From IMG/VR virus record IMGVR_UViG_3300003437_000058, positions 1 to 40,519 of that record: a stretch of 40,519 bases of DNA; one strand, 5' to 3'. Positions 12,001 to 37,069 of this stretch are shown here, one piece after another (the first letter of the stretch is position 1; every line of letters starts with the position of its first letter). The notes below the pieces were generated by a model, which saw nothing but the letters and a program-made list of their open reading frames with translations, did not search any database and was not told the DNA's origin. The DNA is from a virus. The position numbers and the translations under genes are program-made.

Positions 12001-12823
12001 CTTCATTTTTAATACCACTTATAACTTTCAACAACTGGATAAAATTTTCATCTGCAAGTTGTAGAACCGGATCTGTTGATGCGAGTGATTTACTTTTTAG
12101 GGCTAACTCAATTTTATATCTTGCTGCCCCTGGAGCCGCATAGTTGTAAGTACCTGAAGCTGGATCAAGTAACAGAGGATCATCATCACTTGTTTTTGTT
12201 GATTCTGTAATTTCTAATCCAACTCTCCCAGAAGGAGTTTTGGAATAGGCATCCATGATTATAGTATTTGCGGGGGTAAAGAGGAAGAATCCACCAACAT
12301 AAAATACGCCTGTATCGACACTAACAACCGAACCGTTACCAGTTGCACCTTCAATACCTGATGCTCCCGCGGCACTAACAACTGTTGCTTGTACTGCACC
12401 AGCTGCGATTGTTTCTCCGTCTTCAAATGTATCACCTGACAAATAATGGAACATTAACGTAGGTTGAGTACTGGAAGTGGCCGCCTGCGAAGCCACGATC
12501 CGTGCTCTTGCGTTAGAAGTTGCACCAACAACAGTAGTTCCGGAAAAGGAGGCCGCATTAATATTTTCCCCCGATTCTTGAGTTTCTAGCTTAAGAGATT
12601 TAACTTCAGTATCTAAAGTTACCTCTCCACCAAAAACTTTACTACCGTCTTTGAACATATGCTGACCATATCGTTCAATCTGTTTTTGAAGTATGGTCTG
12701 TAATTGTGTTACTTCCCTTGCCTGAACTGCATACCCAGGTCTAAAAAGAATACGATAATAATTCGTTGACTCGTCATAATCATCATAATACGGCGTAACA
12801 TTGAAATTTGTAGAAAGTGGCAT
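6029..12823 (-). CDS. Giant DUF4815-type baseplate/tail structural protein
   Basis: This 2,264-residue protein begins with STNFNVTPYYDDYDES followed by RILFRPGYAVQAREVTQLQT and QIERYGQHMF, the hallmark of DUF4815 structural proteins of marine T4-like phages. A second conserved block near residues 1045-1145 (YYLSRVDKIALTKD, then FTMRDIGKLEKRIERIEYYT) belongs to the same family. Between and after these are many Thr/Ser/Asn-rich beta-modules, including F..GE.I repeats near 92-160 and about 1416-1480, and GSGY motifs toward the C-terminus. It follows gp8, where T4 encodes gp9-gp12, so it probably forms the outer baseplate or fibre-attachment layer. The N-terminal domain is confident; the exact T4 equivalent is not. 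Confidence 0.85.
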   Translation of the reverse strand: MPLSTNFNVTPYYDDYDESTNYYRILFRPGYAVQAREVTQLQTILQKQIERYGQHMFKDGSKVFGGEVTLDTEVKSLKLETQESGENINAASFSGTTVVGATSNARARIVASQAATSSTQPTLMFHYLSGDTFEDGETIAAGAVQATVVSAAGASGIEGATGNGSVVSVDTGVFYVGGFFLFTPANTIIMDAYSKTPSGRVGLEITESTKTSDDDPLLLDPASGTYNYAAPGAARYKIELALKSKSLASTDPVLQLADENFIQLLKVISGIKNEEVKYPMYGELEKTLARRTHDESGDYTITPFNLDLKIHRGISGTTAASGVDGTTVHGNNTLFVTELDVGDEIYLGANTTTSTITAIANNTRLTVQTTLPTNLAGAIIYNESEISAGMDAGKAYVKGYEYESIDTQYLDVDKGRDTDSVVDYSMTSEIGNYLVVDTASSLFDVGASEVCQLHSVPFASINLTNNTTFAATQVGTARVRSMDWDTSSGNSAYADTNHSNYRLYLWDVNTSNNITGTVGGLNYDFAEASVDSPTANTRMIQLDLLTTSYANDAYTGASITVNTTNGIDSTSDVRIIDDYFSVVNGITQEDSTDIILQDDTSTSTPNSSTLGKILLMDAGKYVVANAVFSQATLANTTYDIDFKIKDAESIITSTLAAPPTINTHADIADAGKYNSSTSGNTILSNTDKNTLVFPLPQSPIKETSATGNTVSYSFKKVEKALSSDASGKLTITLSNPNYRFMPSGGTLSTTNSKENFIVVVKTPNAAQTFVNAVSSTATLTSSDPAEARLLATGNYLDLGAVNDAGTTIRPVTVNGTRQSVDIYCNTSAVFVADIIYTVESSSIKKEPGPRTKTLVSGNGSAIVATTGSPAVPTTSVAGGQFYFETPNQTQTGTDTVPVSDAFNLVKVVDSGQPFIHVTAAMMVASANNIASRYTFESGQKDNFYDHATIKLKPGQPGPSGKIMVVVDYFNWDGGEGYHAVDSYPTSGDYNKVDAASTLPFSYGTIPDFTSPTTGATVNLRDAIDLRPRRENASNDMNDTLAIEGIPTPDPDGTITSSFSYYLSRVDKIALTKDRKFKTLRGESGLNPVAPPDDEDSMTLYSLSIPAYTFNLTDITTRYVDNKRFTMRDIGKLEKRIERIEYYTALTILEKETASRNFSTGGARDSLFNPTGTAFKNGILVDSFSGHSVGDVMNDDYNVSVEYAKKEMRPGFYYDNHRLTYSLGYSNNVTKTGDLITLPYTDTDFIVQPLSSATQALNPFNITNWMGSIKTFPNSDTWFSQGTRPDVTTNLESQNDNWALSPSTGRTGFGSQYDDWSTNWTGKQVTEQPQTGVDKVGKTGKANRSTAEMTDSKSRVGISANTPPESVLKSIGNKVVDTTVVPYVRGQTVFFAATGLQPLTNVYVYFSETDVSANIRPASKLALITVNGTFSVGETLKDGANNYGTIMFSSNTFNNTATVFLSNITGNTAATDSSQYGSANSLPEGQRESFGIATIGDATHVFTVANAVEGLTSTATANVSTRTHFSVGVANGIMQTDDSGQIAGEFHLPDATWRSGNKLLRITDNSLNNVSATITSSESTFVSKGILQSREQLLISTRETINQRELPNDKAIVRDTTARSTEKSNWVNPLCQTFHVDPNSFPKGLFLRNVTLNFATKDTKLPIKLQLRPIVNGFPSASKVIPFSEVSLNPDRVQVSTTANSSLANTTTRTTFTFNSPVFLTPDEYALVLTSNSTEYVVHMAEEGKASTGSIAKISKPSFVGSFYKPQNAGIWEADPNKYIMFNMQRAEFDIGGGGSNNFAKFITAANSATGNTTNVMADLIKVGTSTIDFSDTELQWKYAASNGTFTLADGTEGSASYVKFSPDQNYELTDRKRVLAYTNGSFRIRAEMKSSNSHISPVIDLDRLNLISVENYIDNGGLADADFSISTKGSGYSNVMSSAYTATIISGGTENTASVNVHVEMTMNVNSNSTTLGSSNGGATPPYSFVVGDPVMCNTSGNSLHTLAENSGVYGIISAVTHLDGDPTKNVSSVTIKTNANNKTIPTPGGSPAAGTIGFTNGCLIWANANAMANVYTSGHAYSNTKMTVLIANSYVSNVVVTVAGSGYTQNPTVNISSITGVGSVNSAVQCTGEERNSGGPISAKYISRRVTLKDGFDASDLKIILSAYKPLGTNVHVYYKVKNADDPDDFDMKNYILMTQETSSGVISKGKDDIQEFIYQTPAETAAYTSNSVRYETFKTFAIKIALVADTTYDMPRVKDMRAIALD

Positions 12824-14589: not shown

Positions 14590-17500
14590 TTAAAGTTGAT
14601 ATACAGAGTCGCTTATTCCACCCGGCATACATTTTCTAGTTACTTCTAAAGAAGTATCATTAGTAATAGTCTTTACCATAAAAGCTTGTGCATCTAGTAC
14701 TAATTGTTGTCCTCCATCCTCCCAAAGCATATTATTATTTTCCCATTCTGGGGCTTCTCGTTCAATACCACCAGGATAACCGCCGGTATTAGTTTCTGTG
14801 CCAAGGCCGCTTCCGGCATTAGTATCGGCACCAAGAATCCAATAACTTTCAAGAGAAGTATCCCAAGCAGAATATTCTCCTATCACACCGGTATGACTAC
14901 CATGTGCGGCAACAGTAGTATCTTCAGTAGTTATTAACCACCGAAATTTTTCAATTGTACTTCCCATAAAATCTGCTGCGGTAAGTTGTTCATTTTGTAC
15001 ATGAAAAATTCGTATTTCTTCGTGTTCTATTCTTTCATCTGTTTCTAATAATACGCCCCCACCAGTATCTTCAGTTATAATATTTTCATTTGCTGTTTGA
15101 AATTCTTCACCAACCTTAAGTTCTGTAGTAAATAAAGATCCTGATCCGGTTCCAACAACTCCCCCATCAGCGATACTGATTGTTCCCCGTAATCGTGAAA
15201 GTATTCTACTATATCTATATGAAGGAAGAACCGTCCAAGCTTGACTGGGAGTAAACTCTACACCATAATTTTCAGCTGGTGGTTTAGATGTTTCTAATAA
15301 TGCTCGCGCTGTTACTTTACCTTGTGCAACTGTGGTAAATTCTTCGTGCTGAATATAATCTTTTCTATTACCATCAATGGCCCCATCGGTTTGAAGAACA
15401 TCTTCCAACAAAATGAAATCCAAAACTTCTCTTTGAAGGTTCATCATATCTAAACCCAATTCAGGAAAATCTTCATGAAGTAAATAGTTTTGATTTGTTA
15501 CAGGATGTTCTAAAATTATTAATCCTGAATCATCTTCTTGTGTAAATTTATCATCAACAAAATATAAATTGGCTTCAGTCCATTGTGAAACATAATGCGG
15601 CCTAAAGGGTTGCATACCATAAGTTCTTGTAACAACCGTATCCTTCCAAGTTTCAATAGAATCTAATTCATGATTTGCCGGCGTCCAACGCTGTAGATCA
15701 CTCGGCGCCTCTGTTGAATCATACCCCTTAATAATGGTTGGTGCTTTAAATGGGATATCATCTAGTATAAATCTTGATAACTGAATCGCAGTTTCATCTC
15801 CTTCTTCAATAATGTGGTCTTCATCTTCAAACTTTAAGTGATGTCCCAGAGAATCGAGAAGATTATATTCTATTTCACCAGTAGTATATTTGAAATAACC
15901 TTCTTCTAGTTGCGGAATGGATTCATCTTCATAAAGATAATGATAACCATCTTCCATTGCGATATGTTGGCCTGTACCAGCTGTGGCCCTAATCCAAGCG
16001 GTCTTATATGCTGCGGATGCATCTGTCATCACATGCTTATGTGCAAATTTGCCTTCTTCAAGTATATAAGATTTATAAAAGAATGGGGCGGTGCCACTAT
16101 CTTCGGCCGCGATCAATGTTCCTTCCGTATCTTCCATTAATAACCGGCCTGTTGGAGAAATTAAAGGATCATGTATTATAACAGGCGTTCTTTCAAATGG
16201 TGGCTGTTCAGAAATCAATTTTGATTCCAGTTGCGGGCCATCACCTTCACCAGCAATAAAATCTGCACCGTCTTCTGTTTGAAAACCCCCCCTCATTGAA
16301 TCAATAAGATTAAATTCAATTTGGCCAGTAGGATATTTAAACCAACCTTCTTCCATAAGAGGAACCGTTTCATCCTCATAAAGATAATGGTATCCATCTT
16401 CCATTAAGGTATGTTGGCCAGATCTTACTTGATAAGTTTTTTCGATTCCAACGGTCAAATCTTTTACGTGACTTTCTTCAGTAACCGGCCGAGTTCCATC
16501 TTCATATCTTAAATGTGTAAAACCATCCTCTGCTAAGAAGTGCCATCCGGTTGTATCATAAAGATTAAATTCAATTTCACCAACTGGGTCTTGTACTTGA
16601 CCATATTCAATAAGCAATCGCGTATTGTCTTCATGAACAACATGGCTTCCATCTTCAGCGATGACATGCCAACCAACAGTATCATAAAGATCAAATTCTA
16701 CTTCAGCAATACTTTGTGTACCATAATAATCCTCAACCATGATGTAATTATTACCTAAAGCAGAATCTTCCTCAATTATATAATCACCATTCTCTGAAAC
16801 AATTGCATTATAAATTATTCGTAGATCAAATTCCTGTTCAAAAGATCGGTCTTTTGTAATTGGAATTGTGTCTAATGTTAATAGTTCTTCATCTTCATAC
16901 GTGAAACGATCTAAACCACTCTCAGAAATTAAGTGCCATCTCGTTGAATTGTAAATATTTTCTATCACATGAGTATCTACAATTGGAATACTCTCATATT
17001 GGTGATCTGGACCTTGTGTATCTTCTTCAAGAGAAATAAATCTTTGTGGCCCATTGCCTTGTCCCGCAGAAGTTTCATCTAAAAGATAACCCCATCCATA
17101 AGCTCCATTATCATCTTCAAGAAGAATGTCACTATTGAAACTCACATCAATGGATATAACTCCTGTCTCGGCTTCAGGAAATTGAATTGATGGATAGAGA
17201 TAAGATCCTCCTCTTTCAAGTAAAATTTCAGTACCATCTTCATTTAGAACTCCACCACTAAAAGGTGAATCCCAATTTGTTGCATCCGCGCGAAAAACAT
17301 CTGAATATGATATTACTTTAGATTTCAGATAATTTGTTACTTCCATCATCAAATCGGAAGCATCTTCCATAATAACATTATTTCCAGATTGTTGGTCTTC
17401 TAACTGAATATAAAGAAATCCATCATACATGCTTTGTGAAGTGGCGGAGCCATGATCTGGTGATGGAGTAATAGTATATGTGTTTGTAGTGGGTGCTGAT

Positions 17501-20500
17501 GTAACAGTATAATTGCTATTGAATTGTTGACCGGATTCATCCCCTGAAAATTCAATCGTATCACCTTCTTCAAGTCCATGTAATGTTTCTGTAACCACAT
17601 ACATTGTAGAATTGGTTCGTGCTATAGACGAAATTTCTGCATAATTTTCTAGTTGAAGTTGTACATCATCGTATGTCTCCAATCTTGCATCCATCGCTTG
17701 CCACGGATGGTTTGCAGTATAAATTTCTAATTCATTTGCAGTTGCATATGATTGAAATTGTACATTTATAGACGGAGTATTTGCATTGAATAAAGTAATG
17801 TTGTGATATTTTCTTGCGCCATCTGCTCTCTGAGAATCAACATTTCTTGTTGCTGCATCAAACATTTCTACTGAAATGAGACTACGTATGGCCAATTCCC
17901 CGAACATTATTAGGCCGGATGGATGGATCAGTCTTTTTACTGAATTACGATAATCGTTTACATCAAAATCGGTTTTTAGAACATAAGAAAATTGTTGATA
18001 ATACTTATTATCTTGAATTTTTGGTACACCACTAAGTAATCCTTGTGTGTCAGTATAATATCCAGGATATGTTGCATAAGCACCAAGTCCTGCAGTAAGT
18101 TCGGCATTCTGATCACCAGAGGTAGTTGTAAGAATTGGAATAGAAGAATATCCTGCACCAAAATCATAAACTTCTGCAGATTGAATTGCACCAATTGCAA
18201 TAGCAGAAACTGCAATTACAGCATTGTTACCTTTTAGTGAGGTATCCATTGAAACTGCATTAGCTGCGGCGAGCCATACAGACGCAACTGGCATTGCTCT
18301 AAGATCACCAGCAGGAGAAGTTACTGCATTATCTTCTGGCAAAGTATAAGTGTAAGTGGCATTGTTTGCACCTATAACATTGATAGGAAATATACCATTA
18401 AAGATAGCGGTTCCAGATCCAGAAATTTTAACCTTATCGCCTGACCTCAAATAATGTCCGATTTCTGTTACAGTAACCGTTCTATTTCCTGTACCACCAG
18501 CTGACATTGTAACAGTACGGTTTGTTCCCCATGTTAAAGCGGGATTATAACTGATTGAATATGTGTTACCTGCTCCTACTGTTTTTGAATCTTCTACTGT
18601 GAATGATGTAGCATTAGTATATCCAGTTATTGTAGAGGTAGTATCATCGTGATAGGTAATAGTTCCACGAACAAAATCATTTGGAAATACAGTACCAACT
18701 CCTGTAACTACAAGGCCCGATTGAGCCATAGTTCCTGTAGTATATGTAGAAACAGAATTACTATATGCTGTAACACGATCACCTGATGTGGCTTCTGTAT
18801 AAAATCTTGATGCATCGGATTCATTACAAATAAGATCAAGGTCTTCCATCTGTAAGAATTCTACAGAAGTTTCTATCAAAAAGCATCCACCCCCACCTTG
18901 AGCTGATCCAAGTCCAGAATGGGGACCTTGACCAGCAGTGAAATCTTCTAATAAAAGCTTTTCATGTGAATAACGATCATTATGAAAATCTTTTTCTTCT
19001 AATAATATAGCCTCTGTCACACCACAAAAATCTTGAGCAGTAGTCATATCCACTCTCAAGGTTGTATTACCATTTGCAATGTATGGATTAGCAGCGGGTA
19101 GAGTAGCCTTGTCTATAAAATCAAGAACTTTTCCTCTTGCAGTATAGTCATCATTATAGAGTAAAGTATTCCTTGTAATATTATTCGCAAGAGCCATGTA
19201 CGAAATAGAATAGGTTTGCTTATCGGGAAAATCTCCCGTACCATATCCAAAAACTTTCTCTGTAGCTACCCTAATAACAGTAGAATTAGTAACTGCAGTT
19301 ATAGTATCTGTAGCTCCATTTGCGTATGTAAGTGTAAGTAATCCAGAATTTGCTTCCGGAAATGTATCTTCACTAGTTAAGGTAACTACATTACCATTTT
19401 GAGCAATTGTTCCAGCAGTAAAGGAATGTAAATTTACATTAAGCAAGGCGTTAGGAGCACCTGTTACATCTAATGCATTTCCTAAAGTTGGAGTATAACT
19501 ATTAGCAACACTAACAGGAGGTGATGTTTCATATTGACCCCCTCCTGATGTAAGAACAAATGTATCAATTGCTCCAACAGAAACAGAAGTCATATTGAGT
19601 GCACCATTACAAATAAGAACTGGATCGGCAGTTGCACCATGAGCATCGACCATAGTAAAAGTATTAGTTGTTACAGCGGCGGGAGTATTACCAGCTTGAA
19701 AGGTAACACCATTATGCATATTATGTGCATCTACACCTGAGCCTGCGGCCGCTGCTCCCAATTTCGTAAATTTAGAATCATATACTAAGATGTTATCATC
19801 ATTAACAAAATTTTGTACAGTCAAAACATCTATGTCGCTATCACGATAATAAGAACCAACTGAATATAAAAATGCAGTTGTATTGGCACTAATAATTGTA
19901 CCCCAATAAGTATTGCTTGCATAATCAACGGAGAATGCTTGGCCTGCTCCAATTGTGTGAGTATCCCTAACTAGTAAAACAGTATTACTTGAAAATCCTG
20001 TAATGATATTCGTGTTCGCATTTGCATAAGTAAGTTTACCACCAACAACATCTATTTTTTCTTCCTCTGAAAGACCCGATGAAAGAGTAACAGTTTTTAC
20101 TGATTGTGTAAGGGTTACACCTGAAGTGTTTACACTTACTTGTTTCGCAATTCTATCTCCGGCCAATATATGTGCGGTAGCATCATAGTTACCTGTGGAG
20201 CCATACAGTTTTGCAGAACTTGCTTTAATTCCTGCAGAAAATATTAGAGAAGAATTACCAAACAAATGAGTATTAACGGCGTGTCCAATAAATGTTGATG
20301 AATAATCTGAAGCATTTATCTCTTTCAAGGAGAAATTATTAATAATATCTGTATTTCTTAAAATATCACCAGTAGAAATAATGGTTGCAACGTGTCCTGC
20401 GGCCCCACTCCCACCGGTTCCATCATTAATAAAGCCAACTTGATCTCCTACGGCATATCCATCTCCAGAATCTATAATATCAATACCTTCAACAACAGAA

Positions 20501-21669
20501 TCTAAAATAGATGAAACTCTTGCACGTGCACCTGAACCACCACCACCATTAACATGAATTTCATCACCAACTACATAATTAGTTCCACCAACCTGAACAG
20601 AAACCGTTTGTAAAATTCCTGTTGTGGTTGCTTCTGCATATAATCCATCTGAATCAATTTCAGATGTAATTATTTCATCTGGTTGAAAATATAATAATCC
20701 ACCAGCAACAACTCCCTGAACAACATCTGATAATGTTAATTCAGTAATTTCAAGGGCTCCAGCAAAAGAAGTAAGTTGTTTTTCCACCATAGCGGTACAC
20801 TTAGAATCGGCACCTGTAATTCTTCTACCAGTAAATAAAGTAATATTATTTGCACCAGATGTTACAATTTTAATTGATTTATCAAGTGCCCATACTCCAT
20901 CAGATAATCTTAACAAATCTGCTTTGGGATAATAAAATTCTATATCTTCTTTCTCAAACAATGATTGAAATAACCAACTAAAAGAAGCTTCATTTCCTTT
21001 TGCTCGATAGACCTGCTTCATTCTTTTAAGAAGTTGTCGTCTATCAGTAACCGTTGTCTTTGGAAGATTTGTATAAAATTCTTTTTTCCATGCATCATCA
21101 ATAAGACCAACAGAGGTAGTATCAATATCTTGGTCTAAAGATAATTCTTTTATTGCCGCGGCGGGCGCCTTTGAACGAAAAGATTCTACTGATCCTGCGG
21201 GGAATATTCCATCAACAATACCATTTGATAAAGTACCGTATGAGCCGTAGATACTACCTGTAAGTTTTTCTCCATATTCAAACCCTGCTTCACTAGAAGA
21301 TTTTACAAAAGCAATAGTATTTCCTTTTGTTCCAGAAACAACTGCGGTTGCTCCACTTATATTACCTGTAAGGGTTTCTCCAAGTGAGAACATGAGATTT
21401 GCATCACCGGCAGTATCTCTTTCTGATTCTATTTGAATAGGAGATTCATCTTCTAATGTAATATAAATTGTGCCATCTGAATTAGTTTCGGCGAGAAGCT
21501 TCTCTTCATTAAATGTAAATGTAGAACCAAAATAAAGTTGGTGGGATTCCATAAATTCATAGTATTTTTCTATGAATTTTTTGAACTTTGGATGTTGGTC
21601 GTTTATAAACTCTGGTAACTGAGTTTCCAATAAAACAGATACATCTTTTTTATCTTTGACTACGGCCAC
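14590..21669 (-). CDS. Giant baseplate wedge-associated protein in the gp7 position
   Basis: This 2,359-residue protein sits between gp6 and gp8, exactly where T4 encodes wedge protein gp7 (about 1,032 residues). The N-terminus has LLETQLPEFINDQHPKFKKF then YYEFME (residues 13-41), and a helical block RRQLLKRMKQVYRAKGNEAS with WLFQSLFEKEDIEFYYPKAD follows near 220-260. Both are recurrent in large structural proteins at this place in cyanomyoviruses. The middle contains GSGARA/GDGYAVGD modules and three copies of a beta-module near residues 510-1050. Residues about 1420-2220 are full of acidic ED repeats. It starts 2 bp after gp6. Equivalence to gp7 is by position and is not shown by visible homology over the whole length. 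Confidence 0.75.
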   Translation of the reverse strand: MAVVKDKKDVSVLLETQLPEFINDQHPKFKKFIEKYYEFMESHQLYFGSTFTFNEEKLLAETNSDGTIYITLEDESPIQIESERDTAGDANLMFSLGETLTGNISGATAVVSGTKGNTIAFVKSSSEAGFEYGEKLTGSIYGSYGTLSNGIVDGIFPAGSVESFRSKAPAAAIKELSLDQDIDTTSVGLIDDAWKKEFYTNLPKTTVTDRRQLLKRMKQVYRAKGNEASFSWLFQSLFEKEDIEFYYPKADLLRLSDGVWALDKSIKIVTSGANNITLFTGRRITGADSKCTAMVEKQLTSFAGALEITELTLSDVVQGVVAGGLLYFQPDEIITSEIDSDGLYAEATTTGILQTVSVQVGGTNYVVGDEIHVNGGGGSGARARVSSILDSVVEGIDIIDSGDGYAVGDQVGFINDGTGGSGAAGHVATIISTGDILRNTDIINNFSLKEINASDYSSTFIGHAVNTHLFGNSSLIFSAGIKASSAKLYGSTGNYDATAHILAGDRIAKQVSVNTSGVTLTQSVKTVTLSSGLSEEEKIDVVGGKLTYANANTNIITGFSSNTVLLVRDTHTIGAGQAFSVDYASNTYWGTIISANTTAFLYSVGSYYRDSDIDVLTVQNFVNDDNILVYDSKFTKLGAAAAGSGVDAHNMHNGVTFQAGNTPAAVTTNTFTMVDAHGATADPVLICNGALNMTSVSVGAIDTFVLTSGGGQYETSPPVSVANSYTPTLGNALDVTGAPNALLNVNLHSFTAGTIAQNGNVVTLTSEDTFPEANSGLLTLTYANGATDTITAVTNSTVIRVATEKVFGYGTGDFPDKQTYSISYMALANNITRNTLLYNDDYTARGKVLDFIDKATLPAANPYIANGNTTLRVDMTTAQDFCGVTEAILLEEKDFHNDRYSHEKLLLEDFTAGQGPHSGLGSAQGGGGCFLIETSVEFLQMEDLDLICNESDASRFYTEATSGDRVTAYSNSVSTYTTGTMAQSGLVVTGVGTVFPNDFVRGTITYHDDTTSTITGYTNATSFTVEDSKTVGAGNTYSISYNPALTWGTNRTVTMSAGGTGNRTVTVTEIGHYLRSGDKVKISGSGTAIFNGIFPINVIGANNATYTYTLPEDNAVTSPAGDLRAMPVASVWLAAANAVSMDTSLKGNNAVIAVSAIAIGAIQSAEVYDFGAGYSSIPILTTTSGDQNAELTAGLGAYATYPGYYTDTQGLLSGVPKIQDNKYYQQFSYVLKTDFDVNDYRNSVKRLIHPSGLIMFGELAIRSLISVEMFDAATRNVDSQRADGARKYHNITLFNANTPSINVQFQSYATANELEIYTANHPWQAMDARLETYDDVQLQLENYAEISSIARTNSTMYVVTETLHGLEEGDTIEFSGDESGQQFNSNYTVTSAPTTNTYTITPSPDHGSATSQSMYDGFLYIQLEDQQSGNNVIMEDASDLMMEVTNYLKSKVISYSDVFRADATNWDSPFSGGVLNEDGTEILLERGGSYLYPSIQFPEAETGVISIDVSFNSDILLEDDNGAYGWGYLLDETSAGQGNGPQRFISLEEDTQGPDHQYESIPIVDTHVIENIYNSTRWHLISESGLDRFTYEDEELLTLDTIPITKDRSFEQEFDLRIIYNAIVSENGDYIIEEDSALGNNYIMVEDYYGTQSIAEVEFDLYDTVGWHVIAEDGSHVVHEDNTRLLIEYGQVQDPVGEIEFNLYDTTGWHFLAEDGFTHLRYEDGTRPVTEESHVKDLTVGIEKTYQVRSGQHTLMEDGYHYLYEDETVPLMEEGWFKYPTGQIEFNLIDSMRGGFQTEDGADFIAGEGDGPQLESKLISEQPPFERTPVIIHDPLISPTGRLLMEDTEGTLIAAEDSGTAPFFYKSYILEEGKFAHKHVMTDASAAYKTAWIRATAGTGQHIAMEDGYHYLYEDESIPQLEEGYFKYTTGEIEYNLLDSLGHHLKFEDEDHIIEEGDETAIQLSRFILDDIPFKAPTIIKGYDSTEAPSDLQRWTPANHELDSIETWKDTVVTRTYGMQPFRPHYVSQWTEANLYFVDDKFTQEDDSGLIILEHPVTNQNYLLHEDFPELGLDMMNLQREVLDFILLEDVLQTDGAIDGNRKDYIQHEEFTTVAQGKVTARALLETSKPPAENYGVEFTPSQAWTVLPSYRYSRILSRLRGTISIADGGVVGTGSGSLFTTELKVGEEFQTANENIITEDTGGGVLLETDERIEHEEIRIFHVQNEQLTAADFMGSTIEKFRWLITTEDTTVAAHGSHTGVIGEYSAWDTSLESYWILGADTNAGSGLGTETNTGGYPGGIEREAPEWENNNMLWEDGGQQLVLDAQAFMVKTITNDTSLEVTRKCMPGGISDSVYQL

Positions 21670-23991: not shown

Positions 23992-25938
23992 CTAATCAAG
24001 AAGGCCCAATACTAGTGCTAATAAATCTATTGGATTTTTACTACCCCCTCCAGCAATAAGTTTATCACCTTCTGTACCGACAAATAATAGTCCTGCCGCA
24101 TATCCCAAATTTGGAATTCCTGTTGCACTAGTAAGTTGTTGTTTTATTCCTTCATTTCCATCAGGTTGATTTGGAATGTAGAGGGCATATACACCCTGTG
24201 ATGGTAATGTTATTTGAAAGAATTTTAAAAACTCATCAATAAGTTTAATCATATATTCCAAAAATGCCTCAACTTGTTTAATCATGTCTATCATGTCTTG
24301 AACAAAAGCCGCGGAATCTGAAATCATCCCTTTTAATTGTAATACAAAATTTTCTAATAATTGAAAAAATTCACCCCAGCCAGGAACAATATCTTTGATT
24401 TGAATTCCTCCAAAATCGGGCGGAGTTGACTCTGGGAGAATCATTAACTTTTCCATTGCAACTATTGCCACCTTTGGATATATCCTTAGTTCTTTTGGTA
24501 ATTCTGTAGTATCTCCACCCACCATAACATAATTAGGAAACATATCATCTACAATTTCAGGATTTCCTGACTCGCCCCTTTTTTCCATCTCCACAACCAT
24601 ATCACCAGCTATCCAGGGGTTTAGTCCATCAAGATTTCTAATTGGATCTAATACTACTTCCATATCAACCCATCTTTCAGTTTCATTCATATTAAAATCT
24701 GTCATAACAGAGGTTATCTCTCCTGCATCATCTGTATCTGCTACCGCTTTTCTTCCTATCATAGTTGTAGGAACTACAGAGCCTTCAACAATCTCTTTGA
24801 TTTTCCCTAGACTCAAATATTTTTGTCCTCCTATAACATCACCTACTACAAATGATTGATACTTAGTATCAACTTGAGTTAATTTAATTGTGACCGGATT
24901 TGGAGTAATAATTTCTGTTAATGCATCTAATAAATTTTTACCAGTAGATGATGAAAATTCAGGAATATCGGAAAACATTTGAGAGAATTTATTAAAAACA
25001 TCAATAAATTCGTCAAAATTTCCAGAGGCAATAATAATTGCTATTGCTCCAGAACCACCCGCGAATTCTGTATTTCCCAAAATATTAGGTTTGCCTGGTG
25101 TAACTTTATTATTAAGAGCCTTTCTTGCAGCCACATAATTTTTAACTGTTGAACCATCTTCACTCGCTTTACCCTTATCAAATAGTTCTAATCCAAAATC
25201 TATCTTGGGGTTCCATCCTGTATAAGCATTACCATCAACATCATATACTATTTCTCCTGCTTTCGGTGCTGCAGAAACCTCTCCCACTAATTTGTATCTA
25301 GGAACATCACCCTCATCATCAAATGCTTTTGTAAATTCTGTAATTACTTCTTTTGTTGTAAATGTAGGATACTTATTTACTCCTCCCTCATCAGGACTTC
25401 TAAGAGGGTCTACTAATGGATTGGAGCTATCATATCCGCCAGGAATTAGTTTTCTAGGAGAGGCCAAATGTGGTTTAGCCTCATCTGCATTTATCTTTGC
25501 TAGTGTGGGAGCGGGATTCCATTTTCCATCAGTTTTGTCAGACCAATTTCCACTATCGTCTTTATATGACCATATTAAATCTCCGGCTTGATTTCTTAAT
25601 TGTTCAAAACCATAACTATATTTTTGGGTAGGTGTAACATTTCTTTCATAATAAGGATCAACATATAAGTACCAATACCCGGCCTCTTTTAAATCTTGAA
25701 TTTGTTTAAGTACTTCATCTGCCAATGCTTCCAATGCTATTAAAAGGGGATTAATATTTTGTAACATTGCTAAAAGTTTAACCACTTCCATTCCAGCACT
25801 TGCAAGAGAAAGACTAGACTTTACAGTTTCAGCAAGAGCAGAAGCCGCAGACGCTAACGTAGCAATATCCCCCGCCTTCGCAATTTGATGGGGTTTCCAT
25901 TCAGCTTTCGCTGTTAATAGTGCACCAAATTCAGCCAT
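23992..25938 (-). CDS. Virion structural protein of unknown function (648 aa)
   Basis: I do not recognise a named family. Residues about 20-85 are Ala/Leu-rich amphipathic helices (LASAASALAETVKSS, then LLAMLQNINPLLIALEALAD). The centre is mixed, with GYWYLYVDPYYERN near 87 and a W-rich segment, and includes FVVGDVIGGQKYLSLGKIKE near 365. Residues about 510-580 are again long helices (LLENFVLQLKGMISDSAAFV, FLEYMIKLIDEFLKFF), and the end is a Gly/Leu tail GLLFVGTEGDKLIAGGG. The position between gp5 and gp25 suggests a hub- or wedge-linked baseplate component, as in cyanomyoviruses. It overlaps the preceding small gene by 8 bp. Confidence 0.7.
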   Translation of the reverse strand: MAEFGALLTAKAEWKPHQIAKAGDIATLASAASALAETVKSSLSLASAGMEVVKLLAMLQNINPLLIALEALADEVLKQIQDLKEAGYWYLYVDPYYERNVTPTQKYSYGFEQLRNQAGDLIWSYKDDSGNWSDKTDGKWNPAPTLAKINADEAKPHLASPRKLIPGGYDSSNPLVDPLRSPDEGGVNKYPTFTTKEVITEFTKAFDDEGDVPRYKLVGEVSAAPKAGEIVYDVDGNAYTGWNPKIDFGLELFDKGKASEDGSTVKNYVAARKALNNKVTPGKPNILGNTEFAGGSGAIAIIIASGNFDEFIDVFNKFSQMFSDIPEFSSSTGKNLLDALTEIITPNPVTIKLTQVDTKYQSFVVGDVIGGQKYLSLGKIKEIVEGSVVPTTMIGRKAVADTDDAGEITSVMTDFNMNETERWVDMEVVLDPIRNLDGLNPWIAGDMVVEMEKRGESGNPEIVDDMFPNYVMVGGDTTELPKELRIYPKVAIVAMEKLMILPESTPPDFGGIQIKDIVPGWGEFFQLLENFVLQLKGMISDSAAFVQDMIDMIKQVEAFLEYMIKLIDEFLKFFQITLPSQGVYALYIPNQPDGNEGIKQQLTSATGIPNLGYAAGLLFVGTEGDKLIAGGGSKNPIDLLALVLGLLD

Positions 25939-26113
25939 TTTGTTTTTCCTTTTCAGCTTTCTTAATCTTTGCCCTTAATACGGCTTCCCAACTTTCTCGC
26001 TTTACTTCCATGATCTCCGAATACATTCCAGCAAGTTTTTTAGTATTTTCTAACAACTTCTTAATATCATCTCTTCTTAATTCTGCTTCTTTCCATTTAT
26101 TTTCTTCAGCCAT
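25931..26113 (-). CDS. Small charged helical protein (60 aa)
   Basis: The product MAEENKWKEAELRRDDIKKL... is 60 residues of almost pure charged helix rich in Lys and Glu, with no cysteines and no membrane segment. Its start overlaps the stop of the preceding 860-residue gene (TAATG), and its end overlaps the next ATG by 8 bp, so it is embedded in a coupled trio. This tight linkage, more than any homology, supports it as a real gene. It could be an assembly factor or a helical clip for the flanking structural proteins. Confidence 0.65.
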   Translation of the reverse strand: MAEENKWKEAELRRDDIKKLLENTKKLAGMYSEIMEVKRESWEAVLRAKIKKAEKEKQNG

Positions 26114-28695
26114 TAACTATACTCCTTCGCTCTACCATTATAAATTTCATATTTGTTTCTAGCCTTTTTTACTAAATCTACTAATTGACCTAAACTCTGT
26201 ATATCTTGTATTAATTGTGTCATTAATTTAAGATCTTTTCCTAGTAAATAATTGCAACTATTATAAAGCGATCTACCATAAGGAACTTGGCCGCTAGTAG
26301 TATTTGCCGCTGGAACTGCTGATACATAAATTGCCGGCGGGGTTCCTCTTACAGTTGATTGAGATCCTGCACGTGTAGGTACACCAATACGTGCATCTAT
26401 TTCTGCAACTCTCTTTACACAATTAGTACTAAGTGTAGATGCTTCAGTATAAAAAGCTGCCCATGCAGTATTCGCATAAGTTATAAGTGTTCCTTTTCCA
26501 GAGTTACCATTATCGGCCCCTGTTCTACTTTGACCAGAAAGAGTACCACGAAAAGTTGTCAATGATGTTGATAGCGATGCCAAATCTGCTTCTGTGGCCA
26601 CATTCATATAAGTATCAAATGCTGCATCAGTTATTCCACTACCTCCAGCTTGTGCTCCTGTGACAATCGGATCACGAAACGCATCAATCGATTGTAAGTC
26701 ATCTACTGTATCACGTATAAATTGTACATCGGCATTCATTGAAGAGTTTGCTGTACCCCCTGCCTCATATATGTGTTTCTGTGCAAAATTATATCGACAC
26801 GGAAATGTGGTTGTAGTTGTAGAAATAACGCCAGTCCAATTAGTTCCTGAAGTAATTGTAACAGACGACCAATATATTCTATTAACATAAATGTAATTAT
26901 TTGCTGCAAGAGTATAATAATTAGCTATGGTTGCACCTTGTGATGGTGCACTTGATGATCCACTTGTAGAGGGTAATGTTGTATCATCATCAGCCGGAAC
27001 ATCACCCGTAGCCCCCACACCAACCGAAACTCCATCACAAGAAACAGAAGTTCCCTGCACTCTTGTTATAGCGGATGATAATCCTGTTTTAACAATAGCA
27101 GCAATAGGTTCTGCAGCATTAGGCATAGGATGTGTAGTACCTACTGTAACCGTACCACAAGTATACTGTGAATTACATGGTAATTCATAATAGAATTTTT
27201 CAGCGCTATCAGTATAATATCTATGTTCTGGTGCTAGAGATGCCACCTCATCAAATGGAACAACTGCCTTAGTTCTTTTTAGATCAAATCTAACATATCT
27301 TCCAGAAGGAATATCATCTTCACCTAATCCTGAAGGTTGTGTTCCTACAATTTCACCATTATCTACTGCATACGCCTTATGTGTTCCTCCTATAGCTGGA
27401 AAGAATGGATTTCGTTCTATATAAGGATATAACGTTTCACTAAATTCCTTTCCTTCAGAAACCCAATCACCTCTTGCACCTTTTGTTAAATCATTCGTTG
27501 CATTAGCAGATCCATTATTTGGATCAAAGAAACTAAGTAGTCCTATAAACTGAGAAGTGTTAGCATTTAATAAAGCATCCGCTCCCGCATTTGTTGCACT
27601 ATAATCTCCTGCGTCATCACCAACCGGCATCCAATCTGGATTTACTACTAATCCTTCTGCTACTACTTCTACTTGACAAAAGATATCATCTTTTTGATAT
27701 CCAAATGGTACACTATTCACAGTAAGAGTAACCGTTCCATCTGCTGTTGCAATTCCCGTATTACTAAGTCTGATTTTACTATCTGCACCTCTTATTCCAG
27801 CTATTGTCACATTATCATCTGGAATCCCCTCACCACTAATCACATCACCATATTTGATTTTAGCGAGATCGGTGTCTGATATTCCTGTTACTTCTATACT
27901 ATCTACTTTAGTAGTGCCGATGATTGTGAATGTGTTCACATGGTCTGCATGTCTCTTTAAATAAAACTTCTGACCGAATGCCGCGCCTAATGGAGTATAA
28001 TCAGTATTACTGCCTGGTGATAAGTGGTCTTGTAATGTCAAGGTAGTTAATTCATTATACAAGCCTTCACTTTGTATTGTTGTACTAGCAATATTCACTT
28101 TAGCATAATTCTCGTTCCATGTTCCCGCCTCACTTGCTACATTTTCTCCCCAAGAAACTGCATTACCAAACGGAGTATCTGCATCTGGTGTAGAATATGG
28201 AGTAATGCTATCATTAATGTCTATTATTTCTCCATTTACTCTTGATCTAACTAGATAATAATCTCCAACAGCAGTACTAAATGTATTATCGCCCTGTGTC
28301 TGCGTTCCGGTCAAAGTAGTTAAATTGATAGTATATGTTTCACCAATATCAGTAGCCTTAATTCCCATAAAAGAAGTATTCGGTTCTGTAAGAAGCAAAG
28401 CTCCATTTACTGTTTCATAGGCCGGAAAAGTAAATTTCTTAAAAGCAGTTTTTAAGTCTCTAGCACCATAACATATAGCACGTTGTTGTGCAAGGGCTTC
28501 ACATATTTGTGCAAGTGAATAACTTCCTGTTGAAGAGGTAAATTTTTCACATAATGCATTTAATCGTGTATGTGCAAATTCTCTTGATAACGTAACAGAA
28601 TCAAGAATTCCAGTACGTGAAGATAAATGAGTAGTGGGACTGTCTTCCAACTCTTCTCTTACTTCAATTATTTTTTTATCAATTGCTCCTGCCAT
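26113..28695 (-). CDS. Virion structural protein of unknown function (860 aa)
   Basis: The N-terminal 95 residues are helical and charged (AIDKKIIEVREELEDSPTTH, ALCEKF, ICEALAQQRAICYGARDLKT). The middle is Thr/Asn/Gly-rich beta structure, including a TGISDTDLAKIKYGDVISGE..IPDDNVTI module near 270-325 of a type seen in many phage fibre and baseplate proteins. The C-terminal 60 residues return to helices (YNSCNYLLGKDLKLMTQLIQ, VDLVKKARNKYEIYNGRAKE). Two helical ends around a beta centre suggest a baseplate strut, but I recognise no named family. It is 7 bp from the 157-residue gene and overlaps the small helical gene. Confidence 0.7.
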   Translation of the reverse strand: MAGAIDKKIIEVREELEDSPTTHLSSRTGILDSVTLSREFAHTRLNALCEKFTSSTGSYSLAQICEALAQQRAICYGARDLKTAFKKFTFPAYETVNGALLLTEPNTSFMGIKATDIGETYTINLTTLTGTQTQGDNTFSTAVGDYYLVRSRVNGEIIDINDSITPYSTPDADTPFGNAVSWGENVASEAGTWNENYAKVNIASTTIQSEGLYNELTTLTLQDHLSPGSNTDYTPLGAAFGQKFYLKRHADHVNTFTIIGTTKVDSIEVTGISDTDLAKIKYGDVISGEGIPDDNVTIAGIRGADSKIRLSNTGIATADGTVTLTVNSVPFGYQKDDIFCQVEVVAEGLVVNPDWMPVGDDAGDYSATNAGADALLNANTSQFIGLLSFFDPNNGSANATNDLTKGARGDWVSEGKEFSETLYPYIERNPFFPAIGGTHKAYAVDNGEIVGTQPSGLGEDDIPSGRYVRFDLKRTKAVVPFDEVASLAPEHRYYTDSAEKFYYELPCNSQYTCGTVTVGTTHPMPNAAEPIAAIVKTGLSSAITRVQGTSVSCDGVSVGVGATGDVPADDDTTLPSTSGSSSAPSQGATIANYYTLAANNYIYVNRIYWSSVTITSGTNWTGVISTTTTTFPCRYNFAQKHIYEAGGTANSSMNADVQFIRDTVDDLQSIDAFRDPIVTGAQAGGSGITDAAFDTYMNVATEADLASLSTSLTTFRGTLSGQSRTGADNGNSGKGTLITYANTAWAAFYTEASTLSTNCVKRVAEIDARIGVPTRAGSQSTVRGTPPAIYVSAVPAANTTSGQVPYGRSLYNSCNYLLGKDLKLMTQLIQDIQSLGQLVDLVKKARNKYEIYNGRAKEYS

Positions 28696-34434: not shown

Positions 34435-34475
34435 TATTATCTCCTTTTGTGATTGGTATTGTTAAACTATCTATA

Positions 34476-34483
34476 TATTTATA
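34476..34483 (-). promoter_or_regulatory. T4-type late promoter core TATAAATA at divergent junction
   Basis: The minus strand carries an exact TATAAATA 42 bp before the gp48-like ATG and just upstream of its AAAGGAG site, so it probably starts the long baseplate operon. The box overlaps the first base of the oppositely oriented gp4 start codon. No comparable match faces gp4. Confidence 0.7.
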
Positions 34484-34905
34484 TGGCATACAAAGGAAAA
34501 TTTCGCCCTCAAAATTACAAAAAATATAAGGGTGATCATACTAAAATTATTTATCGTTCTGGGTGGGAATTAACCTTCATGAAATACCTAGATAGGCAAC
34601 CTGAAGTCTTGCGATGGTCAAGTGAAGAGATTATTATACTCTATCGTTCACCCATTGATAATAGAGTACATAGATATTATCCAGATTTTTGGGTTAAAAC
34701 TGATCAAGGTGAATCTCTAATTGAAATCAAACCTAAGAAACAAACAAAACCCCCTAAACCAAACCCCAAACATAGGAGAAGATTCCTCAAAGAAGTAAAA
34801 ACATGGGGAATTAATGAAGCTAAATGGAAGGCGGCAGAAGAGTTTTGTGAACACAAAGGTTGGAAATGGCAAATAATAACAGAGGACACTTTGACAACTA
34901 AATAG
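34483..34905 (+). CDS. gp4: Head completion nuclease gp4
   Basis: The 140-residue product (T4 gp4 about 150) starts MAYKGKFRPQNYKKYKGD and is closely patterned on T4-like gp4. A nuclease core is visible: Glu29 in RSGWE, Asp68 in RYYPDFWV, then Glu81-x-Lys83 in LIEIKPKK, a PD-(D/E)XK arrangement. gp4 trims DNA and completes the head before tail joining. An in-frame TTG at 34453 would add ten residues, but the family begins at MAYKGKF and the extension (LLNYLYIY) runs over the divergent promoter, so I choose the ATG. There is no clear ribosome binding site. It heads the plus-strand operon. Confidence 0.92.
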   Translation: MAYKGKFRPQNYKKYKGDHTKIIYRSGWELTFMKYLDRQPEVLRWSSEEIIILYRSPIDNRVHRYYPDFWVKTDQGESLIEIKPKKQTKPPKPNPKHRRRFLKEVKTWGINEAKWKAAEEFCEHKGWKWQIITEDTLTTK

Positions 34906-34912
34906 TTATATT

Positions 34913-35518
34913 ATGGCTACAGTAGAAGAATCCTATTTGGATAAATTAAAAGACGCAATAAAGACCAATTCTGTAACTGCTAAAGCAAGAGCAGCAGGTA
35001 ACTGGTTTCGCTCAATTGTCAATAGAACAAAGGGTCAATTTTCTGATGAAACGCCAAAGACAATACTTTCACGTTCAGAAAGTTTGGTGTCTCAAAGTGT
35101 ACTAGGGAAAATGTATTTCTATTCCTATGATCCTAAATGGAAAAATGATCTTCCCTGGTATGATACCTTTCCTTTGGTTTTTCCTATTGAAAAATATCCA
35201 GATGGATTTCTTGGGTTGAACTTTCATTATCTTGCACCAAAACATAGAGCTATATTAATGGATCAACTTAAAGCATTTGCTAATAATAAGGCGTATGATG
35301 AAACCACTAAATTGAAATTGACATATAATATGCTAAAAGGTTTCACCAAGATTAAAAGAGCAAAACCAACAGTACACAGATATCTTTCAAGTAAGGTTAA
35401 ATCTCAGTATGTACTTGTTAATGCAGATGAATGGGAAGTAGCACTTTTTCTACCAGTAGAAAGATTTAGAAAAGCAACCAAAAAGAAAGTATGGGCACAT
35501 AGTAAAGGAATGTTTTAA
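34913..35518 (+). CDS. Conserved T4-like structural/assembly protein of unknown function
   Basis: This 201-residue protein starts with a basic helix (LDKLKDAIKTNSVTAKARAA, then GNWFRSIVNRTKG), followed by MYFYSYDPKWKNDLPWYDTF and FPIEKYPDGFLGLNFHYLAP, with RAILMDQL after. I recall close relatives beside gp4 in marine T4-like phages, always unnamed. The end is strongly basic (ERFRKATKKKVWAHSKGMF), which could bind DNA or RNA. It is 7 bp after gp4 and its stop overlaps the next ATG (TAATG), so it is likely co-translated with the tube-family protein. A head-completion or tail-initiation role is inference. Confidence 0.72.
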   Translation: MATVEESYLDKLKDAIKTNSVTAKARAAGNWFRSIVNRTKGQFSDETPKTILSRSESLVSQSVLGKMYFYSYDPKWKNDLPWYDTFPLVFPIEKYPDGFLGLNFHYLAPKHRAILMDQLKAFANNKAYDETTKLKLTYNMLKGFTKIKRAKPTVHRYLSSKVKSQYVLVNADEWEVALFLPVERFRKATKKKVWAHSKGMF

Positions 35519-36093
35519 TGGCAGCACCAGCACCGACAGCACGAGCAGATTTTGCAATATCTGATTTTATAGCCAAATTGGATGGTCTAGGAGGTTATGC
35601 AAAAAGAAATAGATTTACTGTTCAAATTATACCACCGGATTCATTAGTTACTAATGTTTCAGCTTCTGCAATAGAATTTCTTATTAAAGCTATATCATTT
35701 CCAGGTAGATCTTTCGGATCAACCACTTTCAGAAGTGGTGGTAAATATGGTTTAGAAGTTCCGTATGAAGTGACAGAAGAACCCGTAGCAATTACTTTCT
35801 TAGGTACAAATGATTGGAAAGCTAGAAAGTTTTGGTATGATTGGCATGAGCATATACAAAGTAATTCTTCATATAATATGCAATATTATAAAAAATTTAT
35901 AGGGACCGTTACAATTTCAGTTTATAATGAAGAATCACAAGTAGCAGGAGGAACAAGTGGAACTGCCACTCATAAAGTAACATTACATGAATGTTGGCCG
36001 AAAACAATAGGTGCTATAGAGTTAGGATGGGAAAGCGGTGAGTTAGTAGATTTTACAGTAGATATTGCATATAGCTGGTGGACACAAGAATAA
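35518..36093 (+). CDS. Tail tube family protein (gp19/gp54-like)
   Basis: The 191-residue product has a short helical lead (FAISDFIAKLDGLGGYAKRN), then FTVQII, IEFLIKAISFPGRSFGS and a typical final part WPKTIGAIELGWESGELVDF with TVDIAYSWW. This closing pattern is that of Phage_T4_gp19 tube proteins, to which T4 gp54 (320 residues) also belongs. The length and ending look closer to gp19 (163). The position, between gp4 and the gp26/tape-measure genes and away from the sheath gene, favours a tube initiator on the baseplate. The major tube gene would be expected next to gp18, outside this window. Which role it has cannot be settled here. Confidence 0.82.
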   Translation: MAAPAPTARADFAISDFIAKLDGLGGYAKRNRFTVQIIPPDSLVTNVSASAIEFLIKAISFPGRSFGSTTFRSGGKYGLEVPYEVTEEPVAITFLGTNDWKARKFWYDWHEHIQSNSSYNMQYYKKFIGTVTISVYNEESQVAGGTSGTATHKVTLHECWPKTIGAIELGWESGELVDFTVDIAYSWWTQE

Positions 36094-36128: not shown

Positions 36129-36875
36129 ATGGCTTTACCAAAGGTAAGCACACCCACTTATGAATTGACAGTACCATCTTCTGGTGAGAAAGTCAGTTAC
36201 AGACCTTTTCTTGTAAAAGAAGAAAAGACATTATTAATGGCTGCGGAAGATCAAAACGTATCTTCCATCACCAAAGCTATGAAAGATATTATATCTGCTT
36301 GTACAGAAGGAGATTTAGATATTAAAAATCTCGCTTCTTATGATATCGAATATATTTTTCTTCAACTTAGAGGAAAATCGATTGGTGATGTAGTAGATCT
36401 TAATCTAGAAAAACCAAAATCTATTGAATGTAAAGAACCTGACTGTCCTGGGAGTAGCGAAGTTAAAGTCAATATTAATGATATAAAAATTGACACTTCA
36501 ACAATATTAGACTCTGAGATAGAACTTACAGAAGATATTGGTATAAAACTAGGATTTCCTAAAATTGATACAGTACAAAAATATGTCGGCAAAGGTGGAG
36601 AACTGGGTCAAGAAGGAGTATTTAGAATGATTAATGATTGTATTGAATATATTTGGGAAGGTAAAGGAAAATCCCAGGAAATATACAAAGCAAAAGATTC
36701 TACTAAAAAAGAATTAACCGATTTTATTGAATCTCTTAATACCGAACAATTTAATAAAATACGAGCGTTTTTTGAATCAATGCCCAGACTAAAACATGAA
36801 ATTACATGGACATGTTCGAAATGTGACAAGTCAGCACCCCTGCTACTTGAGGGGATTGACTCTTTTTTCGGATAG
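36129..36875 (+). CDS. gp26: gp26-like baseplate hub / tail assembly chaperone
   Basis: This 248-residue protein begins MALPKVSTPTYELTVPSSGE and continues SYRPFLVKEEKTLLMAAED, matching gp26 of T4-like phages (T4 gp26 208, gp51 249). Four cysteines (101, 106, 229, 232; ECKEPDC and TCSKC) could bind one zinc. It ends GIDSFFG at a TAG. It lies directly before the tape-measure gene, where long-tailed phages encode the tail assembly chaperone whose longer form arises by frameshifting. A T TTT TTC slippery site at 36863-36869 in the last codons, and an open -1 frame behind it, suggest the same here. The start follows an AGGAGA ribosome binding site. Confidence 0.85.
   Translation: MALPKVSTPTYELTVPSSGEKVSYRPFLVKEEKTLLMAAEDQNVSSITKAMKDIISACTEGDLDIKNLASYDIEYIFLQLRGKSIGDVVDLNLEKPKSIECKEPDCPGSSEVKVNINDIKIDTSTILDSEIELTEDIGIKLGFPKIDTVQKYVGKGGELGQEGVFRMINDCIEYIWEGKGKSQEIYKAKDSTKKELTDFIESLNTEQFNKIRAFFESMPRLKHEITWTCSKCDKSAPLLLEGIDSFFG
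36849..36854 (+). promoter_or_regulatory. Shine-Dalgarno-like stimulator before the slippery site
   Basis: GAGGGG occurs inside the gp26-like coding sequence eight bases before the slippery heptamer. Internal Shine-Dalgarno-like sites at about this distance stimulate -1 frameshifting in bacteria, as in dnaX. The sequence also encodes Glu-Gly, so its role as a stimulator is inferred. Confidence 0.5.
36863..36869 (+). other. Predicted -1 ribosomal frameshift slippery site
   Basis: T TTT TTC in the correct phase (zero-frame codons TCT TTT TTC) fits the X XXY YYZ rule for -1 slippage. After a shift the next codons are CGG ATA GGG CTG and the frame stays open for 66 codons to a TAA at 37067-37069. 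A weak stem, GAGT with ACTC around CATGAT, begins 10 bases downstream. The zero frame stops four bases after the slip, at TAG 36873-36875. Confidence 0.72.
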
Positions 36876-37069
36876 GGCTGAGTCATGATACTCTGGCGAA
36901 TCATTATCAAACAAACTTCGCTATGATTCAGCATCATAAGTGGAGTTTAACAGAACTTGATAATATGATTCCATTCGAAAGAGAAATATATGCAATGTTA
37001 TTACAACAATGGATTAAAGAAGAGAATGATAGAATAAAAGAACAGAACCTTAAATCAGGGAGAAGATAA
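36869..37069 (+). CDS. C-terminal extension of gp26-like protein in the -1 frame (gpGT-like)
   Basis: After -1 slippage this adds 66 residues (RIGLSHDTLANHYQTNFAMI, ELDNMIPFEREIYAMLLQQW, then KEENDRIKEQNLKSGRR) to residues 1-247 of the gp26-like protein, giving about 313. The extension is mostly helix with a basic end, comparable to the T domain of lambda gpGT, which carries the tape measure to the tail. It ends immediately before the tape-measure ATG (TAA ATG). An internal ATG at 36923 would give 48 residues but has no ribosome binding site. The protein-like composition and conserved W and PF..EIY pattern make this more than chance. Confidence 0.7.
   Translation, partial: RIGLSHDTLANHYQTNFAMIQHHKWSLTELDNMIPFEREIYAMLLQQWIKEENDRIKEQNLKSGRR

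Follow-up and report, generated by a model that had tools for sequence, protein, structure and literature searches.

A probable programmed -1 frameshift joins gp26-type and gp51-like tail assembly chaperone sequences in T4-like phages

One gene in front of the tape-measure ORF very probably encodes two tail assembly chaperones, a short form of 248 aa and a long form of 313 aa, through -1 ribosomal frameshifting. The gene was analyzed in a 40,519-nt record of a marine T4-like virus, which we call the window. Its two-frame anatomy, the conservation of this anatomy and the selected signals around the slip are established by sequence and comparison. Table 1 gives the positions of the features.

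Table 1. Features of the chaperone locus and its downstream neighbor in the window.
Feature	Position	Strand	Evidence
gp26-type short-form chaperone ORF, 248 aa, Pfam T4_baseplate	36129..36875	+	PF12322 and phrog_150 matches
Shine-Dalgarno-like stimulator GAGGGG, 8 nt upstream of the heptamer	36849..36854	+	anti-SD pairing above synonymous-codon shuffles
Slippery heptamer T TTT TTC	36863..36869	+	kept in relatives; synonymous conservation 1.00
Downstream RNA structure region, GAGU/ACUC hairpin weak in the window	36876..36900	+	group-level z -1.9
-1 frame extension, 66 codons + TAA, T4 gp51 counterpart	36869..37069	+	phrog_634 and phrog_150 matches
Probable tail tape measure protein, 800 aa	37070..39472	+	position and weak phrog_167 match

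The gp26-type ORF ends with GAG GGG ATT GAC TCT TTT TTC GGA TAG. One codon separates the heptamer from the zero-frame TAG (36873-36875). After the slip, the -1 frame reads CGG ATA GGG CTG AGT and so on, with the CGG starting at 36869. The last of its 66 open codons ends at 37066, and the stop TAA (37067-37069) is directly followed by the tape-measure ATG at 37070. Upstream, this frame is closed by a TGA at 36857-36859. The earliest ATG, GTG or TTG in it, an ATG at 36923, lies about 20 codons after the slip and opens an ORF of 48 aa. The fused product is predicted to have 313 aa and the junction ...DSFF-RIGLSHDTL... The main ORFs of the window comprise 12,818 codons and contain two in-phase copies of T TTT TTN.

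These features agree with the initial annotation, base for base in the case of the heptamer and its -1 phase before the TAG. It had also placed GAGGGG 8 bases upstream and had seen a 66-codon open frame ending at the tape-measure ATG, and both are there. Likewise, the proposed resemblance to lambda G/GT holds: two ORFs overlap in the 0 and -1 frames immediately 5' of an ORF that weakly matches the tape measure. The record of 40.5 kb, possibly a fragment, contains no second chaperone copy.

On the plus strand, at 34453-36093, a head closure gene (gp4-like), a DNA end protector gene (gp2-like) and a gene for a tail tube-like protein precede the chaperone gene in this order. Pelagibacter phage Mosig and Methylophilales phage Melnitz-3 have a similar order. 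The 800-aa ORF is probably the tail tape measure and the expected client of the chaperones, with a weak match to phrog_167 (tail length tape measure, E=4e-5). On the minus strand, the baseplate gene cluster contains two very large ORFs of 2264 aa (6029-12823) and 2359 aa (14590-21669). The former has a very strong match to phrog_358, of unknown function. Two other minus-strand ORFs, of 648 aa (23992-25938) and 860 aa (26113-28695), lie between baseplate wedge and hub genes and show no PHROG match at 1e-5.

The junction was compared in relatives, as the initial annotation had suggested. The sample consisted of 187 distinct junctions with both parts scorable, from loci on viral contigs and in annotated phage records. 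Scans with the alignment A2 and with the XG4 protein as queries gave no loci. The extension is in the -1 frame in all 187 and in frame 0 or +1 in none. An in-phase T TTT TTN is present in 167, of which 152 have TTTTTTC with one codon between the heptamer and the stop. By comparison, in 41 diverged gp26 genes the rest of the sequence has the in-phase motif at 12 of 9,579 codon positions. The remaining 20 are Ackermannviridae-type phages, which lack the canonical heptamer but keep the extension in the -1 frame. The pattern that the initial annotation had named as speaking against frameshifting, a lost slippery site with a downstream gene in frame or separately started, was not seen. A +1 shift was rejected: this frame closes no more than 27 codons from the stop in every isolate examined, mostly at 2-9 codons.

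Among the isolates with this two-frame layout are KVP40, VH7D, Aeh1, Aswh_1, VmeM-32, P-SSM2, Sf-CH8, Mosig, Melnitz, pf16, Mendera, X1, RHph_I1_9, XG4 and Desulfovibrio phage 7757. Some sites vary in detail. Mosig (L143:3175-3232) has about eight codons between the slippery site and the zero-frame stop, and Melnitz (L144:3187-3196) has none (AGT TTT TTT TAA). In the Ackermannviridae (loci L156, L152, L154 and L239-L257), RTT TTC ATY TAA/TGA replaces the heptamer. Kuja has CTT TTT CAA TAA in its place and keeps the -1 extension. At sites of this Ackermannviridae/Kuja type, full re-pairing is possible for the A-site tRNA only.

The codon before the TTT of the heptamer can be TCT, AGT, GAT, GCT, AAT, ACT or CGT. 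It means that the amino acid varies and the final T is constant. For this final T, log10 P is -9.7 with 41 representatives less than 70% identical and -4.1 with 17 less than 50% identical. The first phenylalanine is always TTT (log10 P of -6.7 and -3.5 for the same sets). These values are conditional on the amino acid and codon usage and are rough, as the representatives were treated as independent. Synonymous conservation near the slip is 1.00 for TCT, TTT, TTC, ATA and CTG, 0.96 for GGG and 0.92 for AGT, with 0.5-0.8 expected. The value for ATA is partly due to the zero-frame TAG.

We tested the signals around the slip on 41 representatives less than 70% identical, against synonymous-codon shuffles. 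Anti-Shine-Dalgarno pairing peaks in windows that start 15-21 nt before the first slip codon. Its excess over the shuffles is about 1.5 kcal/mol, and only at that peak. Glutamate codons at the SD-like site are GAG in 21 of 26 cases, compared with 23% elsewhere. Downstream, 42-nt windows from the slip have a mean z of -1.7 to -2.0, and control windows in the preceding 366 nt average +0.2 to -0.6. The structure signal fades about 30 nt past the slip. A conserved hairpin in one fixed register was rejected. The registers differ between lineages, so a lineage-wise structure test was used. Many cyanophages have strong hairpins, and that of P-SSM2 has 11 bp (-15.6 kcal/mol, z -5.9). The initial annotation had proposed a weak GAGT/ACTC stem in the window. 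Its arms are present (36880-36883 and 36890-36893). However, this hairpin (-7.6 kcal/mol, z -0.16) folds no better than shuffled sequence, and the selected structure belongs to the relatives as a group. As judged from these comparisons, the upstream SD-like element and the downstream RNA hairpin are under selection in the relatives, with the hairpin weak in the window. Bacterial -1 sites such as that of dnaX are known to have three elements: an SD-like element, a slippery site and a hairpin.

Under programmed frameshifting, the majority of ribosomes would terminate at the TAG and release the gp26-like short form. Some would slip back one base with two phenylalanine tRNAs on T TTT TTC. The slip may be aided by the upstream GAGGGG and, in most relatives, also by the downstream hairpin. 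The slipped ribosomes would then read 66 more codons and produce the long form. By analogy with lambda G/GT, both forms might coat the tape measure protein, the extension might recruit tail tube subunits, and the efficiency of the slip might set the ratio of the two forms.

The same protein would result from transcriptional slippage, in which RNA polymerase adds one U on the T6 run and a fraction of the mRNAs encodes the long form. The run of six, sometimes seven, T is indeed present. Nevertheless, T6 is short for slippage by a bacterial polymerase, and the SD-like and hairpin elements under selection act on the ribosome. We consider polymerase slippage very unlikely.

The two parts of the gene belong to one protein family. 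The core matches PF12322 with E=7e-59 and 199.5 bits (curated cut-off 24.5), as do T4 gp26 and T4 gp51. It aligns to positions 5-232 of the 282 in phrog_150 (E=9e-65). The extension matches phrog_634 ('baseplate hub assembly catalyst', E=2e-29) and covers positions 232-278 of phrog_150. Core and extension thus cover adjoining stretches of a single profile that meet at the slip. In the same profile, T4 gp51 covers positions 13-280 and T4 gp26 positions 14-235. We built a fusion HMM from 16 fused sequences. The alignment of T4 gp51 to it continued past the junction, and that of T4 gp26 ended at the slip codon. Because T4 gp51 spans the junction and T4 gp26 stops there, gp51 corresponds to the predicted slipped product and gp26 to the unslipped one. 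In the window, the gp51-like C-terminal extension is continuous with the core only through the -1 frame.

T4 has two genes on opposite strands, one short and one in-frame long. Production of a short form from T4 gene 51 by a -1 slip was also considered and rejected, as the junction in this gene has no slippery sequence. A pair of short and long genes is also present in 44RR and Pseudotevenvirus EC-F2, with short copies that match the profile weakly. In Enterobacter phage EC-F2 (L264:2001-3294), the gp51-like long and gp26-like short copies are in tandem on the same strand and overlap by 8 bases, in contrast to the T4 pair.

Database records for P-SSM2, Mosig, Melnitz, KVP40 and Sf-CH8 list the extension as a separate gene. 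Such a small gene ('gp51') would start at an internal ATG, here 36923, and encode a 48-aa protein. The conservation does not follow this start. It sets in at the slip codon, some 20 codons ahead of the ATG, and the window has no start codon between the -1 stop and the conserved stretch. In tblastn searches with the -1 product, the cyanophage alignments start at residue 1, with 50-63% identity. In the -1 frame, a start codon precedes the slip in only one of 167 relatives. From the slip to the first possible start, the distance varies between 3 and 34 codons among relatives. A separate gene would also leave the conservation of the heptamer, SD element and hairpin without explanation, and T4 gp51 is a single protein across the junction. 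A 248-aa protein with an independent 48-aa gene was thus rejected, given the conservation from the slip codon and the lack of a suitable start, and a separately started gene appears extremely unlikely. Finally, a sequencing or assembly indel could have split one continuous gene, since errors are frequent in homopolymer runs and T4 gp51 is unbroken, but the same layout in 187 distinct sequences, including finished isolate genomes of several phage families, already refutes it at the level of comparison.

The programmed -1 frameshift proposed in the initial annotation is therefore supported by the conservation of heptamer and phase and by the absence of a start codon upstream of the slip in the -1 frame. 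The extension conserved from the slip codon, the stimulators and the in-frame T4 gp51 give further support. For P-SSM2, the predicted junction peptides are ...LQSFFR and then ISMAHEDLESYYK.

The fold of the core was also considered. The AlphaFold model of the core has a pLDDT of 90.6. Its most probable PDB structure match is the HK97 chaperone 2OB9 (2ob9_B; probability 0.72, 61 columns, E 1.3). A lower match is 3FGX (probability 0.21, E 6), which is counted among tail assembly chaperones (PMC9603447). No significant PDB sequence match was found for the core. The link of the modeled fold to known tail assembly chaperones is weak and suggestive only.

Hundreds of T4-like records hold this junction. 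In those examined, gp26 and gp51 appear as separate genes or gp51 is left out. Among the annotated isolate records examined, none joins the gene, and the extension is mostly a short separate CDS or absent. In Aeh1 (L262:737-1683), the -1 extension lies behind gp26 (GAT TTT TTC GAC TGA) in unannotated sequence and precedes the next large ORF. Where records list two genes, they most likely describe one gene with two product forms. Sullivan et al. 2010 reported that gp51 of cyanophages reaches only about 20% of its usual length and that Aeh1 has no gp51 (PMC3037559). The -1 extension accounts for both this length and the gene that Aeh1 seemed to lack.

We lean slightly towards a single frameshifted gene as the ancestral state of the T4 superfamily. 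The set of SD-like element, T TTT TTN and hairpin would have been kept in Kyanoviridae, Vibrio and Aeromonas Straboviridae, Pootjesviridae and others. The gp26 and gp51 pairs of T4, 44RR and Pseudotevenvirus would be derived by duplication and in-frame fusion. In the Ackermannviridae, the shift would take place at a degenerate site where full re-pairing is limited to the A site. These phages offer a natural comparison between frameshifting and gene duplication for making two chaperone forms. The SD-like and hairpin stimulators are additions that can be tested with reporters.

The locus resembles lambda G/GT (layout in PMC5009743) in its overlapping frames 5' of the tape measure gene, with a predicted -1 slip close to where the first frame ends and a predicted short and extended product. 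It differs in its slippery site (T TTT TTC), its PF12322 protein and its SD-like and hairpin stimulators. A 2016 review described G-T frameshifting as conserved in long-tailed phages 'except T4' (PMC5009743). In T4, gp26 and gp51 are classed as chaperones of hub assembly; gp51 is absent from the final particle, and the presence of gp26 in the hub is disputed (PMC3004832). Their protein family is that of the chaperone gene in the window, with gp26 similar to the short form and gp51 to core plus extension. However, T4 has its two genes on opposite strands and no slippery site at the equivalent codons, whereas the window very probably has one slipped gene. In the group of phage Adele (Vandenendeviridae/Andersonviridae), a conserved -1 site ends the short form, and the extension is routinely annotated as a separate hypothetical gene (PMC12846349). 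This likeness is one of layout, and the site in the Adele group is a GTTTTT motif rather than T TTT TTC.

Vladimirov, Gautam and Davidson (Virology 2022) reportedly identified the tail assembly chaperones of T4-like phages. That work is cited for poly-T slippery sites in T4-like chaperone genes (PMC12846349) and for the presence, in some T4-like phages, of a short and a fused long copy (PMC10885494). Judged through these citing papers, its chaperones are apparently the same gene set as the one described here. The impression in the initial annotation that such slippage was unreported for this branch does not hold in general: poly-T sites in T4-like chaperone genes are described as known from the 2022 work (PMC12846349). 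The frameshift principle was already known in tailed phages and, according to the citing papers, in T4-like ones. As far as could be searched, the evidence on the SD-like element and the hairpin, together with the breadth of the survey, is what the present analysis adds.
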